From: Alkalicoccus chagannorensis DSM 18086
GTDB taxonomy: Bacteria; Bacillota; Bacilli; Bacillales; Salisediminibacteriaceae
Reading direction: 5' to 3'
Length of the DNA: 38,561 nucleotides
NCBI RefSeq assembly: GCF_000429725.1
Contig: NZ_KE386946.1
Coordinates: forward strand, 1-38,561
A model generated the notes under the pieces. The model saw nothing but the letters and a program-made list of their open reading frames with translations, was not told the origin of the DNA and searched no databases. Shown piece after piece: positions 4,436-38,561 of this stretch. The position numbers and the translations under genes were made by a program. Numbering within the stretch: the first letter of the stretch is position 1; each line of letters starts with the position of its first letter.

Positions 4436-4778
4436 AAGCTAATCCCTTTAGGGTTACGTCTGACGGCACAGCCGCGGAAATGAGGTGGATGAGGTGTAGG
4501 GCGTGTCCGTCGTTTGAAGCAGGAGCGGACGTTCGCGGCGGAGGAGCAGACGTTCAAGGGCTGAGAGCGGTCACTCAGAGGCACGGAGCAGTCATTCAAA
4601 AGCAAAAAGCGGACGCACGGGCGCTGGGCGGTCACTCAGGAAGCCGGAGCAGTCACTCAGCCGGCAGGGGCGGACGTTCAGCGAAGGCGAGCGGTCACTA
4701 AGCGCCCCCCTGCATTTCCGTCACCAACCACCTTCATACCGTCAGTGACCCAAGCCCCCTTTTCCGGTACACAGCCGC
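4436..4778 (+). repeat. Diverged single copy of the 21-bp-phased intergenic element
   Basis: Nine short elements beginning CGG or CAG (typical CGGTCACTC, CGGACGTTC, CAGTCACTC) start at 4526, 4547, 4568, 4589, 4610, 4629, 4650, 4671 and 4692, so the spacing is 21, 21, 21, 21, 19, 21, 21, 21. The left flank (4440-4485) has the CAGCCGCGGAAA segment and the right flank (about 4739-4765) has ACCGTCAGT and CCCAAGCC, both as in the other arrays. Bases between the element heads are strongly diverged from the 36-kb copies, yet the spacing is identical. It lies between a gene terminator and the promoter region of the next plus-strand gene. Confidence 0.85.
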
Positions 4779-4873
4779 TCTGATGCGACCGGCGCTTTAG
4801 GAAGAACCCCACGATTCCGGCGGCAACTATGGTATAGTCGACTACAGAAGGATAGGAACAAGGAGGAATATAG

Positions 4874-5239
4874 ATGGACACGCACGAGGATTACTTGGAG
4901 ACGCTGCAGCCGGAACAGCGCAGCCGCATGAGCGAGGTACTGCAATGGGTAAAGGAGACGTATCCCGATTTGACCCCGGTGATCAAATGGAAGCAGCCGA
5001 TGTTTACGAATCATGGTACGTTCATTATCGGCTTCAGCGCGTCTGCGAAACATCTGGCAGCCGCTCCCGAGCCCCAGGCGATCGACGCCCATGCAGAGGC
5101 CATCGAAGCGGCGGGACTGAACTATACGAAGCAGCTGATCCGCTTCCCATGGAAAAAAGAGATCCATTACGATCTGCTCCGGCAGCTGATCGACTTTAAC
5201 ATCGAAGACAAAGCCGGCCACACCTCCTTCTGGCGCTGA
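4874..5239 (+). CDS. DUF1801 (YdhG/frataxin-like fold) protein
   Basis: A 121-residue cytosolic protein with AGGAGGAAT just before ATG 4874. It matches the DUF1801 family: Y-L-E-T-L-x-P-E-Q-R-x-x-M near the N-terminus, PVIKWKQPMF (about 36-45), FIIGFSASAKHLAAAPEP and the C-terminal KQLIRFPWKK. B. subtilis YdhG (Fra), reported as a frataxin-like iron chaperone, belongs to this fold. The family is broad, so an iron role is inference. A second DUF1801 gene lies at 26578. There is no operon partner within 80 bases. Confidence 0.85.
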   Translation: MDTHEDYLETLQPEQRSRMSEVLQWVKETYPDLTPVIKWKQPMFTNHGTFIIGFSASAKHLAAAPEPQAIDAHAEAIEAAGLNYTKQLIRFPWKKEIHYDLLRQLIDFNIEDKAGHTSFWR

Positions 5240-15910: not shown

Positions 15911-16845
15911 GCCGGGAAGGGAAGGGCTTAGGTAACTGACGGTCTATTTGTTGCTCGAGGGTCTGGACCGAAGCGCCGTTGCGAGGTGCGGAGTGACCGA
16001 GCGCGGGTCCTGAACGTCCGCTGCGTCCTTCCGAGTGACCGCCCAGCACCGCTGTGACCGATTTTCCTGCTGGAGAGACTGCCCGCTCTCACCTAGCGAC
16101 CGCCCACGGCCGCGCTGCGTCCGAGCCGGCGCCGCGAGTGACCGATCCGCACCCGATGCACCGCCGCAGCGGTCCACGATCCAGCTTCGTTTCCGCGGCT
16201 GCTCCGGCAGCCGTAGACCAGAGGGGCTTGGGTAACTGACGGTCTATTTGTTGCTGTAGGGTCTGGACCGAAGCGCCGCTGGGTGGCGCGGAGTGACCGA
16301 GCGCGGCTCCTGAACGTCCGCTGCGTGCTTCCGAGTGACCGCCCAGCGCCGGTGTGACCGCTTTTCCGCTTCCAGCGACTGCCCGCTCCCTCCAAACGAC
16401 CGCCCACCGCCGCACACCGTCCGAGCCGGCGCCGCGAGTGACTGATCCGCACCCGATGCACAACCGCAGCGGACCATGATAACCTCGTTCCCGCGGCAGC
16501 CCCGGCAGCCGTAAACCGGAAGGGCTTAGGTAACTGACGGTCTAATGGTTTCTGGAGGAGACTGGACCGAAGCGCCGTTGCGAGGTGCGGAGTGACCGAG
16601 CGCGGATCCTGAACGTCCGCTGCGTCCTTCCGAGTGACCGCCCAGCACCGCTGTGACCGATTTTCCTGCTGGAGAGACTGCCTGTTCCCTCCTTGCGACC
16701 GCCCACCGCCTCCCAACGTCCGAGCCGGCGCCGCGAGTGACTGATCCGCACCCGATGCACCGCCGCTGCGGACCATGATGACCTCTTTCCCGCGGCTGCC
16801 CCGGCAGCCTTAAACCAGAGGGGCTTAGGTAACTGACGGTCTAGT
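15911..16845 (-). repeat. Tandem array of three about 299-bp phased elements plus a terminal part copy
   Basis: The landmark GGTAACTGACGG recurs at 15931, 16231, 16529 and 16828, so the copies are 300, 298 and 299 bp. Each copy has the same landmarks in the minus-strand direction: a hairpin segment with GGCAGCC arms, ATCATGGTCCGC, then a run of short elements (GAGTGACCG, GAACGTCCG, TGTGACCG, GCGACTGCC on the plus strand). It fills the gap between the 3' end of the ugp operon and the GGDEF upstream region. The element points along the transcription of the upstream ugpB gene. Any open frames inside are by-products of high GC and repetition. Confidence 0.9.
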
Positions 16846-21680: not shown

Positions 21681-22590
21681 TTTCCGCGGCTGCCCAGGCA
21701 GCCGTAGACCAGAGGGGCTTGGGTAACTGACGGTCTAATGGTTGCTGGAGGGTCTGGACCGAAGCGCCGTTGCGTGGCGCGGAGTGACCGAGCGAGGCTC
21801 CTGAACGTCCGCTGCGTCTTTCCGAGTGACCGCCCAGCGCCGGTGTGACCGCTTTTCCACTTCCAGCGACTGCCCGCTGGCGCCTTGCGACCGCCCACGG
21901 CCGCGCTGCGTCCGAGCCGGCGCCGCGAGTGACCGGTCCGCACCCGATGCCCAACCGGAGCGGAGCATGATACCTTCGTTTCCGCGGCTGCCCCGGCAGC
22001 CGTAAACCAGAGGGGCTTAGGTAACTGACGGTCTATGGGTTGCTGGAGGGCCTGGACCGAAGCGCCGTTGCGAGGCGCGGAGTGACCGAGCGAGGCTCCT
22101 GAACGTCCGCTGCGTCTTTCCGAGTGACCGCCCAGCGCCGGTGTGACCGATTTTCCACTTCCAGCGACTGCCCGCTATCGCCTAGCGACCGCCCGCGACC
22201 GCGCTGCGTCCGAGCCGGCACCGCGAGTGACCGATCCGCAGCCGATGCACAACCGCTGCGGACCATGATACCTTCGTTTCCGCGGCTGCCCCGGCAGCCG
22301 TAAACCGGAAGGGCTTGGGTAACTGACGGTCTAATGGTTGCTGGAGGGCCTGGACCGAAGCGCCGTTGCGAGGCGCTGAGTGACCGAGCGAGGCTCCTGA
22401 ACGTCCGCTGCGTCTTTCCGAGTGACCGCCCAGCGCCGGTGTGACCGCTTTTCCACTTCTAGCGACTGCCCGCTATCGCCTTGCGACCGCCCGCCGCCTC
22501 CCAACGTCCGAGCCGGTGCCGTGAGTGACCGATCCGCAGCCGATGCACAACCAGAGCGGAGCATGATCCAGCTTCTTTTCCGCGGCAGCC
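21681..22590 (-). repeat. Tandem array of three 298-bp phased elements
   Basis: The landmark GGTAACTGACGG recurs at 21722, 22020 and 22318, an exact 298-bp period. The copies are very similar to each other and to the 15.9-16.8 kb array, in the same minus-strand direction. The hairpin segment (GGCTGCC arm, CGG, GGCAGCC arm) is visible near 21686, 21985 and 22283. The array fills the gap between the alcohol dehydrogenase 3' end and the ugpC upstream region. At its right edge it runs into the dehydrogenase terminator, which replaces the last hairpin arm. Confidence 0.9.
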
Positions 22591-25103: not shown

Positions 25104-25121
25104 GGAAAGGCACACCATCAT

Positions 25122-25214
25122 CTGCTGGGGGAGCCGGTACGACCGGCTGAGAAAAAAGCGTGGACTTTTTGACCCTTTGGACCCGATCTGGATCATACCA
25201 GCGTGGGGAAGCAG
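25122..25214 (+). promoter_or_regulatory. TPP riboswitch (thi-box)
   Basis: The outer stem pairs CTGCT (25122-25126) with AGCAG (25210-25214). Conserved cores are present in order: GGGGAGCC, GGCTGAGA (25145-25152), GACCCTTTGG, ACCCGATCTGGATCATACCA and GCGTGGGGAA. These match the thiamine-pyrophosphate aptamer. An intrinsic terminator follows at once, so TPP binding should stop transcription. No thiamine gene lies downstream in this window; the next gene is an SDR about 560 bases away. Confidence 0.95.
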
Positions 25215-25230
25215 CCGACGTCTGGATGTC

Positions 25231-34474: not shown

Positions 34475-34591
34475 AGCAGAGACCCCGCTTTCTGTGTGTA
34501 ATCATGTTTCTATTATAGTACTTTGGTTGTTAGAAGAAAATCTTCGATGGAAAAAGAGTGAATGATTGTAAAAGAGGGAAGGGAAAAAAGA

Positions 34592-34608
34592 GTTTAATCA
34601 TATTAAAC
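34592..34608. promoter_or_regulatory. Palindrome in the DASS symporter upstream region
   Basis: GTTTAAT (34592-34598) and ATTAAAC (34602-34608) form a perfect 7-bp inverted repeat with a 3-base centre, 36 bases before the symporter start. It may be an operator. The AT-rich content makes chance more likely than for the GC-rich sites. Confidence 0.4.
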
Positions 34609-34644
34609 CAGAAAAAGACCGAGACGAAAAGAAGGAGGGGTTTT

Positions 34645-36306
34645 ATGGTGACATGGATGCGGGAGACGTGGGCGGCTGCCTGGCGCAGCCACGATCGTAC
34701 GAAGGAGCTGCTGAAGTTCGTCACGTTCATGGCGGATGGACCGCCGAGCGATGAGCGGAAGCAGATGGAGACAGCTTCCGGGAAGATGACGAATACATAC
34801 CGGCAGCCGTCGCCGGACGGACAGGATTTTTCGCTGAAACAGAAGGTGGGGCTGCTGCTCGGACCGCTGTTGTTTTTAGCAATTTATTTTCTTTTTGATG
34901 CGGAAGGTCTCGCCGATGAGGCGCGCGGGGTGCTTGCGGTCACTGCGTGGATTGCGACGTGGTGGATCACCGAAGCGATTCCGATTCCGGTAACGGCACT
35001 GATTCCGGTGATTTTATTTCCGCTGGTCACGGAGCTGGAAACCGGGGAAGTCACCCCCAACTACGGGGATGGTATCGTTTTTCTCTTCCTCGGAGGGTTT
35101 ATTATTGCATTGGCGCTGGAGCGGTGGAACCTGCACCGGCGGATTGCTTTAACGATCATTAATTTTGTTGGAACGAGCACGAAACGACTGGTGCTCGGAT
35201 TTATGCTGGCGACAGCCTTTCTGTCGATGTGGATCTCGAACACGGCGACCGCGATGATGATGGTGCCGATTGGTACTGCGATCATCTTTCAATTCACCCA
35301 GCTGATGAAAGAAGGGGACATTGAAGATGCGGAGAATCAGGAGAAGACTTTTTCAAAAGGATTAATGATTGCGGTTGCATTTGCTGCGTCGATCGGGGGG
35401 CTCGGTACGATCATCGGGACACCGCCGAATACGATCCTGGCCGGGCAGCTTGATGAGATCTTCGGCATCGACCTCTCCTTTGCGAACTGGATGATGTTCG
35501 GTGTGCCGCTGGCAGCCGTGCTGCTCGTGCTTGCATGGCTCTACCTCGTCAACATTGCCTTCCCGATGAAGCTGAAGGAAATTCCGGGGAGTGGAGAGCT
35601 GATCCGAAAAGAACGTGAGGAATTAGGGAAGATGTCCGGCGATGAAAAGCTGGTCATGACGATTTTTACTATGACAGCGCTTGCTTGGATTTCGCGGGAG
35701 TACGTGCTTCAGGAATTCATTCATGAAGGTATTGATGATACCCTCATTGCCATTACCGGGGCGGTGACGCTGTTTTTAATTCCGTCTGTGAAGTATCAGG
35801 GTGTGAAGCTCATGAACTGGGCGACGGCGAAGAACGTGCCGTGGGGCATTCTGCTCCTGTTCGGCGGTGGTCTCGCGATTGCGAGCGCCTTCGGGGATAC
35901 CGGGCTCGATGAGTGGATCGGAACGCAGCTGACGGTTCTCGGCGGCGTGCAGCTGATTGTGATGGTGCTTGGTATTGCTGTCATGGTCATGTTCCTGACA
36001 GAAATCACCTCCAACACGGCCTCTGCGACGATGCTCATGCCGATCATGGCTTCTCTGGCGGCCGCAGTAGATGTGCACCCATTTGCCATGATGGTTCCGG
36101 CCGCGGTAGCCGCTTCCTGTGCGTTCATGCTGCCGGTAGCGACGCCGCCGAACGCGGTCGTCTTCGGTTCCGGTTATTTGAGAATGGGCGACATGATCAA
36201 AGCCGGTATATGGATGAACTTGATTGCCATCGTGGTACTGACCGCCTTCGTGGTGCTGTTGCTGCCAGTTGTCTTTGGCATTGATTTGACAAGCTTCCCG
36301 TCATAA
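34645..36306 (+). CDS. DASS/SLC13-type sodium:dicarboxylate symporter
   Basis: A 553-residue membrane protein. ATG 34645 follows AAGGAGGGG; the in-frame ATG at 34558 has no site. A hydrophilic N-terminal segment (about 65 residues) leads to about twelve helices. The two Na+/substrate hairpins carry the SNT motif: WISNTATAMMMVPIG and TSNTASATMLMPI. Also present are WWITEAIPIPVTAL, TIIGTPPNTI and the late PVATPPNAVVFGSGY. Bacterial relatives (SdcS, VcINDY) import succinate, malate or fumarate with Na+. It is divergent from the PucR-type regulator, so it may take part in the same carboxylate metabolism. Confidence 0.92.
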   Translation: MVTWMRETWAAAWRSHDRTKELLKFVTFMADGPPSDERKQMETASGKMTNTYRQPSPDGQDFSLKQKVGLLLGPLLFLAIYFLFDAEGLADEARGVLAVTAWIATWWITEAIPIPVTALIPVILFPLVTELETGEVTPNYGDGIVFLFLGGFIIALALERWNLHRRIALTIINFVGTSTKRLVLGFMLATAFLSMWISNTATAMMMVPIGTAIIFQFTQLMKEGDIEDAENQEKTFSKGLMIAVAFAASIGGLGTIIGTPPNTILAGQLDEIFGIDLSFANWMMFGVPLAAVLLVLAWLYLVNIAFPMKLKEIPGSGELIRKEREELGKMSGDEKLVMTIFTMTALAWISREYVLQEFIHEGIDDTLIAITGAVTLFLIPSVKYQGVKLMNWATAKNVPWGILLLFGGGLAIASAFGDTGLDEWIGTQLTVLGGVQLIVMVLGIAVMVMFLTEITSNTASATMLMPIMASLAAAVDVHPFAMMVPAAVAASCAFMLPVATPPNAVVFGSGYLRMGDMIKAGIWMNLIAIVVLTAFVVLLLPVVFGIDLTSFPS

Positions 36307-36409: not shown

Positions 36410-37251
36410 CTGCGGGAAAAAGTGATATGGATCGTTGGTGCCGTGGATGGGGAGCGGATCGGTCACTCGCGGTGCCGGCTCGGACGTTCGGAGGCGGTGG
36501 GCGGTCGCAAGGTGGGGACGCGCAGTCGCTAGAAGCGGAAAAGCGGTCACAGCGGAGCTGGGCGGACACTCGGAAGGGCGCAGCGGACGTTCAGGAGCCG
36601 AGCTCGGTCACTCAGGATAACGCAGCGGCGCTTCGTCCGAGACCGGCGACCTCTCCACCGTAAACCAAAAGACCGCCAGTCACCCAAGCCCTTCTGGTAT
36701 ACGGCTGGCGGAGCAGCCGCGGAAAAGAGGGTATCATGGTCCGCTCTGGTTGTGAATCTGGCGCGGAGCGGTCATTCGCGGCGCCGGCTCGGACGTTCGG
36801 AGGCGGTGGGCGGTCGCAAGGCGGGGACGCGCAGTCGCTGGAAGCGGAAAAGCGGTCACACCGGCGCTGGGCGGTCACTCGGAAGGACGCAGCGGACGTT
36901 CAGGAGCCTCGCTCGGTCACTCAGCGCCATGCAGCGGCGCTTCGGTCCAGTCTCCTCCAGAAACCTTAAGACCGTCAGTCACCCAAGCCCATCTGGTTTA
37001 CGGCTGCCGGGGCAGCCGCGGGCGGACGCAAGGCGGGAGCGGGCAGTCGCTGGAAGCGGACAAGCGGTCACATTGGCGCTGGGCGGTCACTTAAGAGGAC
37101 TCAGCAGACGTTCAGGAGCCGAGCTCGGTCACTCAGCGCTACAAAGCGGCGCTTCGGCCGAGATCGGCGACGTCTCCACCGGAAACCTTAAAACAGCCAG
37201 TTACCCAAGCCCTTCTGGTTTACGGCTGTCTGGGCAGCCGCGGAAAAGAGG
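36410..37251 (+). repeat. Array of three phased elements (third copy shortened)
   Basis: Element heads (CGG or CAG) in copy 1 start at 36460, 36481, 36502, 36523, 36544, 36563, 36584, 36605 and 36626. In copy 2 they start at 36769, 36790, 36811, 36832, 36853, 36872, 36893, 36914 and 36935. In copy 3, which lacks about 75 bases and the first two elements, they start at 37023, 37044, 37065, 37084, 37105, 37126 and 37147. The spacing is always 21 bp, except the step after the fifth element, which is 19. Between runs is a conserved block with ACCGTCAGTCACCCAAGCCC and the hairpin CGGCTGCCGGGGCAGCCG (37002-37019). The array fills the convergent gap after the symporter and points along its transcription. 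Confidence 0.92.
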
Positions 37252-37373: not shown

Positions 37374-38345
37374 TTAAAGTGTTTTTTCATAGGCTTCTTC
37401 TATTTTATCTATTAAGAGGAGGCGTTTGTTTCCGCTTCGCGTGGAAAATGGTGCAATGAGCCGAAGGGTACTTCTGGCGGGGATATTTCCAAAGATGAAA
37501 TCAAACGTTTTTCTGTGAAGTGGTGTTTGGATCAGTAGACTAATGTCTCTGAGAGTATGTATGTGGGTGTTCACGTCACGCCAATCACAGGAGGTACATT
37601 TCCAGGAGCGTTTGATGCGCATTATAGTTTGATTCCCGCAATGTTGGCAGGTTAATTTTCCGAGTATTTCCGTTTCAGCTAGGTGATACTTTTTTAATAC
37701 GTTGGAGCGATGCTCGGCATTGCTGTTCTTCAGAGTTTCGCAGATGCTTTTCATCTTTTCTTTCGTAATAACCCGTCGAGTATAAATCTTGCTTACATGC
37801 ATCAGCTCTCTCGGAAGGTTTGCTGCGTGGTAGATACCATCATGATCAGCAGGAGCTTCAATGATCGCCTGATAATTAGAAATGAGGACATGGTTCAGCA
37901 CAGGTGGATTCACGTCAGCGTATTTTTTCAGCCAAAGGCGAAAGTGAAATGCCTGGCGGCTGCTTTGATTCACGGGACAAGCGAAGGATTGGAGGCTGCC
38001 ATCCAGCATCCGGAGCAGCTGTCCATGTTTTAAGTCAAATGTTAATGTACCAGCCATGTTTTTTACTTCGCCTATGAAAGCGAAACAGGGATGGAGGATG
38101 AGGAGGTCTATTTGAAATGTTTCTCCATTAGCTGGAGAACGGAGCGTCATGTTCCGAAAAACTTTACAGTTTTCTGGAATCATTGGCATCTGCAAGTCGA
38201 GCGTCTGCTCGCCGGCGTGACCAATTTTGAAACGACGCAGATGCTCCGTTATTTCCTCTCTTTTTGGGTGAGGATTCGGCAGTCTTCTTAAAAGTGCCTG
38301 AAGTTGATCGATGATTATTGGCTGCTGTAGTGATGGCTGTTTCAT
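37374..38345 (-). CDS. NERD-domain nuclease-like protein with C-terminal zinc ribbon
   Basis: A 323-residue protein. I place the start at ATG 38345 (MKQPSL), seven bases after AGGGGGA; the ATG two codons upstream touches that site. The NERD domain (about 40-150) shows GHAGEQTLD, QIDLLILHP (Asp80) and FIGEVKN (Glu93-x-Lys95), which fits a PD-(D/E)xK-type nuclease core. The C-terminal part has a zinc ribbon with Cys233, Cys236, Cys250 and Cys253. The gene and its upstream region are visibly richer in A+T than the neighbours, which hints at acquisition. It is flanked on both sides by phased repeat arrays. NERD proteins are thought to process DNA; the target is unknown. Confidence 0.85.
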   Translation of the reverse strand: MKQPSLQQPIIIDQLQALLRRLPNPHPKREEITEHLRRFKIGHAGEQTLDLQMPMIPENCKVFRNMTLRSPANGETFQIDLLILHPCFAFIGEVKNMAGTLTFDLKHGQLLRMLDGSLQSFACPVNQSSRQAFHFRLWLKKYADVNPPVLNHVLISNYQAIIEAPADHDGIYHAANLPRELMHVSKIYTRRVITKEKMKSICETLKNSNAEHRSNVLKKYHLAETEILGKLTCQHCGNQTIMRIKRSWKCTSCDWRDVNTHIHTLRDISLLIQTPLHRKTFDFIFGNIPARSTLRLIAPFSTRSGNKRLLLIDKIEEAYEKTL

Positions 38346-38428
38346 CGGCATTCCCCCTACATAGAAATATGAGTTTATTATACCTGTAATTACAATAAAT
38401 GCAAACAAACATTCCCTTTTAGATAGGG

Positions 38429-38561
38429 CGGCAAAGAGATACGGGTCTGGTGTGTCCGTAGATCTAGCGCGGAGCGGTCACTCGCGGCGCCGGCTCGGAC
38501 GTTCGGAGGAGGTGGGCGGTCGCAAGGCGACAGCGGGCGGTCGCTGGAAGCGGGAAAGCGG
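38429..38561 (+). repeat. Start of another phased element array, cut by window end
   Basis: From GCGGCAAAGAG (about 38429) the sequence follows the array unit: TAGATCTAGCGCGGAG, then element heads CGGTCACTC, CGGACGTTC, CGGTCGCAA and CGGTCGCTG near 38475, 38496, 38517 and 38538, again 21 bp apart. It lies upstream of the NERD gene, pointing away from it. The remainder is outside the window. Confidence 0.85.

Follow-up and report, generated by a model that had tools for sequence, protein, structure and literature searches.

An interspersed repeat of nine asymmetric sites at fixed spacing in Alkalicoccus chagannorensis, a candidate protein-binding array

Dispersed repeats of bacteria are usually palindromes or decayed mobile elements. 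The hallmarks of MITEs are terminal inverted repeats and a target-site duplication, while REP and BIME elements carry a GTAG or CGTC tag at one end and have a cognate RAYT gene. Plasmid iterons are direct repeats of 17-22 bp at a two-turn spacing which are bound by one protein and mark a replication origin beside rep. REP sequences have been described as high-copy palindromes of 20-40 bp found outside genes (PMC3733652). Among the repeat families of Bacillus, bcr1 of the Bacillus cereus group and Bhal-1 and Bhal-2 of B. halodurans (167, 74, and 76 bp) are listed together with their stem-loop content (PMC2267715). The pneumococcal BOX, RUP, and SPRITE repeats have extensive secondary structure and were judged parasitic by the authors (PMC3049150). 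Finally, the parC site of pSK41 is composed of direct repeats of about 20 bp on which the small DNA-binding protein ParR assembles into a solenoid (PMC9426499).

Here, we focus on a repeat from Alkalicoccus chagannorensis DSM 18086. The stretch of DNA analysed, referred to as the window, comprises 38,561 nt, and its region 36460-37251 contains three units of an interspersed repeat, two complete and one shortened. In complete units, nine short sites (heads) of approximately CGGWCRYTC follow one another in steps of 21-21-21-21-19-21-21-21 bp, after which about 50 variable bases lead to a tail made of a CCCAAGCCC box and an inverted repeat. A sequence-only reading had proposed this exact spacing of nine sites, and it is indeed present in copies 1 and 2 (from 36460 and 36769). 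The shortened copy was said to keep it as well, and its seven heads from 37023 do follow the steps of a complete unit from the third head onward. This copy begins at head 3, immediately 3' of the copy 2 tail. Beyond the region, the window holds seven more complete arrays at three places and another that is cut by the window end:

36460..36634, plus strand: nine-head array of copy 1, heads at 36460, 36481, 36502, 36523, 36544, 36563, 36584, 36605, and 36626
36683..36740, plus strand: tail block of copy 1, with the CCCAAGCCC box and the inverted repeat CGGCTG...CAGCCG
36769..36943, plus strand: nine-head array of copy 2 (profile match, E 1.3e-38)
36982..37022, plus strand: tail block of copy 2, with the inverted repeat CGGCTGCCGGGGCAGCCG
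37023..37155, plus strand: copy 3, shortened to heads 3-9, whose spacing is unchanged (profile match, model positions 40-188)
37204..37251, plus strand: tail block of copy 3 (direct reading of the sequence)
38475..38561, plus strand: first part of another array that runs beyond the window end (the profile matches at model positions 3-99 only)
4526..4700, plus strand: single nine-head array with diverged linkers and the same spacing (nine-head layout scoring)
15970-16144, 16270-16444, and 16569-16743, minus strand: three tandem nine-head arrays (layout scoring and profile)
21761-21935, 22059-22233, and 22357-22531, minus strand: three tandem nine-head arrays (layout scoring and profile)

The window also carries a TPP riboswitch (25117-25226, plus strand; Rfam, 83.1 bits). 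A 159-residue open reading frame free of Pfam matches lies beside the single array (4742-5221, minus strand), and a NERD-domain gene free of NCBIfam matches adjoins the reported element (37374-38408, minus strand).

How does this repeat compare with the described systems? As far as the account of ParMRC of pSK41 goes, the likeness to parC lies in direct repeats that follow one another about every 20 bp, as they do in the nine-head arrays. However, parC is a plasmid site located upstream of parM, whereas the nine-head arrays number about 60 in one genome (3.52 Mb, 38 contigs). Neither parM nor parR was found beside the arrays of the window, where the flanking genes with a family match are of other kinds, and the ParR/parC solenoid would be an analogy rather than a case of membership. 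Iterons are likewise direct repeats at a two-turn spacing, but the nine-head arrays are dispersed. With REP, at least as portrayed in the cited work, the repeat shares a high copy number outside genes and an inverted repeat, here in the tail; in contrast to REP/BIME, the unit is not a short palindrome, as the heads are asymmetric and the array forms the main part. BOX, RUP, and SPRITE are also dispersed and species-limited, although by their published description they are extensively structured, whereas the nine-head arrays fold no better than shuffles. The families bcr1, Bhal-1, and Bhal-2 could be set against the arrays by description only, and the part of the description consulted does not mention head spacing. 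Neither Rfam at gathering scores (the only matches were the TPP riboswitch and a T-box, both elsewhere) nor a limited search of the open-licence literature returned a family or a description of the nine-head layout, in agreement with the first impression that no named family has it.

The spacing could be followed through the whole source genome. Pairs of heads 21 bp apart (up to two mismatches) are found at 273 places, vs 6 for the reversed pattern. Scoring of the nine-head layout on 20 stretches (the window and 19 fetched from the same genome) gave 53 elements, of which two are partial and low-scoring, and 33 of the 53 align over 190 columns without a gap. Head quality is uneven, with five to nine of the nine heads reaching at least seven of the nine consensus letters in the 51 better-scoring copies. 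A profile built from the 33 gap-free elements has 64 matches in the genome at E≤0.001, some of them outside the fetched stretches. Among the 60 best matches, 58 span exactly the model extent and hence have no net insertion or deletion, one is longer by 1, and one is shorter by 1. Across the 20 stretches, 935 of the 1054 head pairs no more than 170 bp apart (at most one mismatch) lie at exactly 21k or 21k+19 bp, with 193 pairs at 21 bp, none at 20, and one at 22. The genome-wide extraction of copies and count of head distances that the sequence-only reading had called for thus gave a fixed rather than a random spacing. The copies are unevenly spread, touching 11 of the 38 contigs, and 46 of the 64 profile matches fall on C10, C16, C17, and C29 (about 310 kb).

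The same reading had described the sequence between heads as loose, and this is borne out by comparing diverged copies. When 52 elements (one with an N was dropped) were grouped at 72% identity, 21 clusters resulted; between their representatives, heads are 72.6% and linkers 47.5% identical, so that about half of the linker bases are common between clusters, compared with 26.7% in a shifted control. All copies and arrays, those of other families included, were found by head-based patterns or profiles, and the conservation of heads and their common core are in part a result of this search. In 50 elements (the 51 better-scoring ones minus one with a single-base insertion), the least variable unit positions are C0, G2, and C4, with heterozygosities of 0.03, 0.00, and 0.07, respectively. 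The heads are asymmetric and the inverted repeat is confined to the tail, which was found for 38 of 51 elements, 28 of these 38 having at least seven paired positions. The array strand is poor in T (13.9%).

A related but longer layout is found in genus g18, which belongs to a different family (f11) from that of the source genome. Six genomes carry such arrays, one place being common to four genomes and another to three, and a profile built from nine of the longer arrays matches 14 of the 18 family genomes, with up to 44 matches per genome; the other four, including one genome of only 80% completeness, have none. From four genomes, 80 listed places gave 83 aligned matches, one of them weak and partial. 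Their consensus has ten heads of TTCGGWCA with steps of 21-32-21-21-21-21-21-21-21 bp, and this head is exact in 580 of 790 readable instances. Pair distances are 21 bp in 425 cases, 22 in 37, 20 in 4, 32 in 52, and 31 in 11. Length is less strict in these elements, as 58 of 83 deviate from the consensus over heads 3-10. Terminator-like perfect stems lie near 7 of the 83, vs 1 of 166 control windows.

Orthologous elements of this layout could be compared directly. Similarity of at least one flank defined 25 sets with 80 pairs. Over all pairs, 302 of 5935 head positions and 1580 of 9840 linker positions differ, with six pairs reversed; unaligned length differs in 54 of the 80. Taking only the most diverged pair per set, the values are 94/1879 (5.0%) for heads and 564/3139 (18.0%) for linkers, and heads are slower in 24 of the 25 sets (sign test, 1.5e-6). 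Some bias remains in this contrast since a head-rewarding profile found the copies, but it still exceeds a factor of three. In an earlier four-genome set, counted without the two search heads, 12 of 48 head positions are variable vs 58 of 123 in linkers, and in a three-genome set 2 of 48 vs 8 of 123. Within the head, T-2, T-1, G2, C4, and A5 change in 1-2% and G1 in 5.5%, while C0 (15.9%) and W3 (12.4%) change at linker-like rates. To judge from these alignments, the g18 heads seem to be constrained in place.

The picture outside these two groups is patchier. A DNA search with the unit gave no match at E≤0.001 in 59 related genomes, and the profile under stricter filters gave none in seven congeners, where the head-pair pattern (one mismatch) occurs at 4 places, vs 180 in the window genome. 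The gene at 34558-36306 has an ortholog in six of the seven (73-77% identity), and no strong 21-bp period was found within 1.5 kb on either side of it, the best 21-bp lag being 0.37 (L194, upstream). The profile gave weak matches in 13 of the other 298 genomes searched; many of the inspected ones have a similar head repeated every 21 bp, but others do not, such as L229, which looks like glycine-rich coding sequence, and L224, which is free of arrays. Counting the source genome, 139 of the order's 397 genomes have pairs of the core CGGTCRYT at 16-32 bp, many by chance or in coding sequence. A search of relatives for the spacing, also suggested at the outset, had a divided outcome: the nine-head profile has no match in the seven congeners, but CGGTCRYT arrays at 20-22 bp are present in other families of the order.

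From the genomes with high counts, eight were picked; pairs spaced by 19-22 bp occur in five of them (107 in total vs 0 reversed) and in none of the other three. With chain steps of 19-23 bp allowed, 89 of 93 steps are 21 bp in G392 and 7 of 7 in G161 (two of four loci), whereas 20 bp accounts for 34 of 34 in G158 (five or six heads per locus, eight loci) and 90 of 105 in G052. G376 has 16 steps of 21 bp and 5 of 22; its four- or five-head array, with complete steps of 21-22-21-21, sits within near-identical dispersed units (L331-L335, L337). A spacing survey, only indicative as it counts the matches listed, excludes the window genome, and includes one of ten rows of a 27-bp repeat in G397, placed 40 of 141 listed matches at 21 bp, 19 at 20 bp, and 15 or 16 each at 18, 24, 27, and 30 bp; the last four spacings, multiples of three, are probably coding. 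Its reversed-pattern control was not clean (39 in G113, 21 in G402). On other genome contigs, at least 111 stretches match, many of which look like coding or slippage repeats; among the 111 listed, 55 have a chain of at least four heads, and the 19-bp step is absent from all 55. A phage origin was also considered, and the three-head pattern matched 26 stretches of viral contigs, once each, which from the counts was taken as background. Upstream of the array at 1995-2087 of L306 there is a second array type with the core TATCGGCGA at about 21 bp, beside the CGGTCACTT array.

Gene context was read from rough open reading frame calls. In the source genome, where frames over arrays were set aside as spurious, the 34 arrays in the fetched stretches comprise 19 with tandem flanking genes, 10 with convergent, and 5 with divergent ones. 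Of these 34, 17 share their strand with the upstream gene, and 22 are on the strand opposite to the downstream gene. For g18, 69 gaps could be judged (35 tandem, 28 convergent, 6 divergent; 14 were unjudgeable), and 42 of the 69 arrays share their strand with the upstream gene. The scarcity of arrays in divergent gaps is only suggestive. Examined window genes beside arrays encode an anion symporter, a NERD-domain protein, an AraC-like regulator, and GGDEF, transport, and dehydrogenase-like proteins. Sequences such as KOPS are replichore-polar, and with dnaA as the origin and the terminus assumed opposite, all 18 loci of four genomes run in one direction (G392 7/7, G052 6/6, G161 4/4, G038 1/1). 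A general polarity was nevertheless dropped: the arrays of the window genome are not polar (19 positive, 15 negative), G069 is mixed, and by local GC skew G104 (3/3) and G182 (2/2) are opposite and G158 is split 4 to 4.

What, then, holds the heads at these distances? Ordinary minisatellites, which arise by replication slippage of a 21-bp unit and have a uniform step and variable copy number, would explain the near-uniform arrays of Sporosarcina L128, Lentibacillus L157, and part of G392 as well as the gain or loss of whole head units in G376 and L379. They do not explain a 19-bp step that stays after head 5 in diverged copies, neighbouring units with different linkers, or the fixed length of 58 of the 60 best copies; slippage, which the sequence-only reading had already found inadequate for this layout, is very unlikely to be its source. 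Repetitive coding sequence with RSL/RTF heptads might be suspected from a step of seven codons and from the open frames that cover many arrays, among them frames of 70 codons or more that run over 53 of the 83 g18 elements and a stop-free head frame in 38 of 50 copies. Yet open frames are expected anyway because the sequence is T-poor. Moreover, variability does not peak at the third codon position (0.401/0.303/0.352 and 0.415/0.294/0.379), the wobble base of CGG varies less than any other position, and no frame survives the 19-bp step, leaving a coding origin barely credible. The nine-head elements do not evolve like protein-coding sequence, and they fold no better than shuffles. This latter result bears on a non-coding RNA or other RNA-level element with repeated binding motifs, to which the strand asymmetry in T, the inverted repeat of many tails, and the same-strand upstream genes of g18 would lend themselves. 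However, folding z averages near zero across the 21 representatives (head strand -0.50, opposite strand -0.09), whole units have positive values (+1.57, +0.44, +1.89), an Rfam family is absent, upstream genes share the strand in only half of the source genome cases, and a flexible strand would need no exact spacing, all of which makes an RNA role improbable.

The main rival is a non-autonomous mobile element, whose heads would be sites for a transposase or similar protein acting in trans; spacing would be kept as only copies with an intact array spread, and the inverted repeat of the tail would be an end signal. Copies are indeed dispersed, both tandem and single, the distribution is patchy among congeners and within family f11, the G376 array lies inside near-identical dispersed units, the tails often hold an inverted repeat, and the authors' verdict of a parasitic nature for pneumococcal BOX, RUP, and SPRITE offers a precedent, within what that source covers (PMC3049150). 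Selection for spreading alone would not, on the other hand, make heads slower than linkers in the four-genome orthologs, and the spacing is kept across clusters joined only at 72% identity. We regard this explanation as rather unlikely, though deserving of serious attention.

We favour, with some reserve, another reading of these comparisons, in which the unit is a DNA-level platform of nine asymmetric sites for one candidate sequence-specific protein. An array of protein-binding sites would be expected to constrain heads at set distances and to leave the linkers looser. Each site would cover about 9-12 bp with the core GGWC, mostly two helical turns from the next, and copies of the protein may line up on the heads, touching one another in a presumably cooperative manner, to form a nucleoprotein array of set length. 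The sequence-only reading had placed such an array on one face of the DNA. The slower heads of g18 speak for the array, and steps of 21 and 32 bp come near to two and three turns of the helix. With 10.5 bp per turn, neither the 19-bp step nor the 20-bp spacing in two other genomes makes a whole number of turns, so a single face describes the geometry only approximately. Patchy occurrence counts against the platform, being more usual for self-spreading repeats, as does the looser length of the ten-site elements. From position and orientation, the likeliest role would be that of a boundary or anchor, namely insulation of read-through or supercoiling, or nucleoid attachment. Promoter control or an RNA role seems less likely, given the small number of arrays in divergent gaps and an orientation only loosely tied to genes.

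More tentatively, and with doubt outweighing confidence, the arrays may belong to an order-wide and so far unnamed class of GGWC-core site rows 20-22 bp apart, on which one conserved protein would form filaments of set length at dozens of intergenic places and so organise the chromosome. The lineage-specific layouts (nine sites including a 19-bp step, ten including one of 32 bp, or five or six spaced by 20 bp) would then be like rulers for different versions of this protein. The conserved feature here is the distance between sites. The array reading may account for the open frames over arrays, which are possibly annotated as repetitive proteins. If true, it would mean that a DNA-binding system with dozens of targets in each genome has gone unrecognised.
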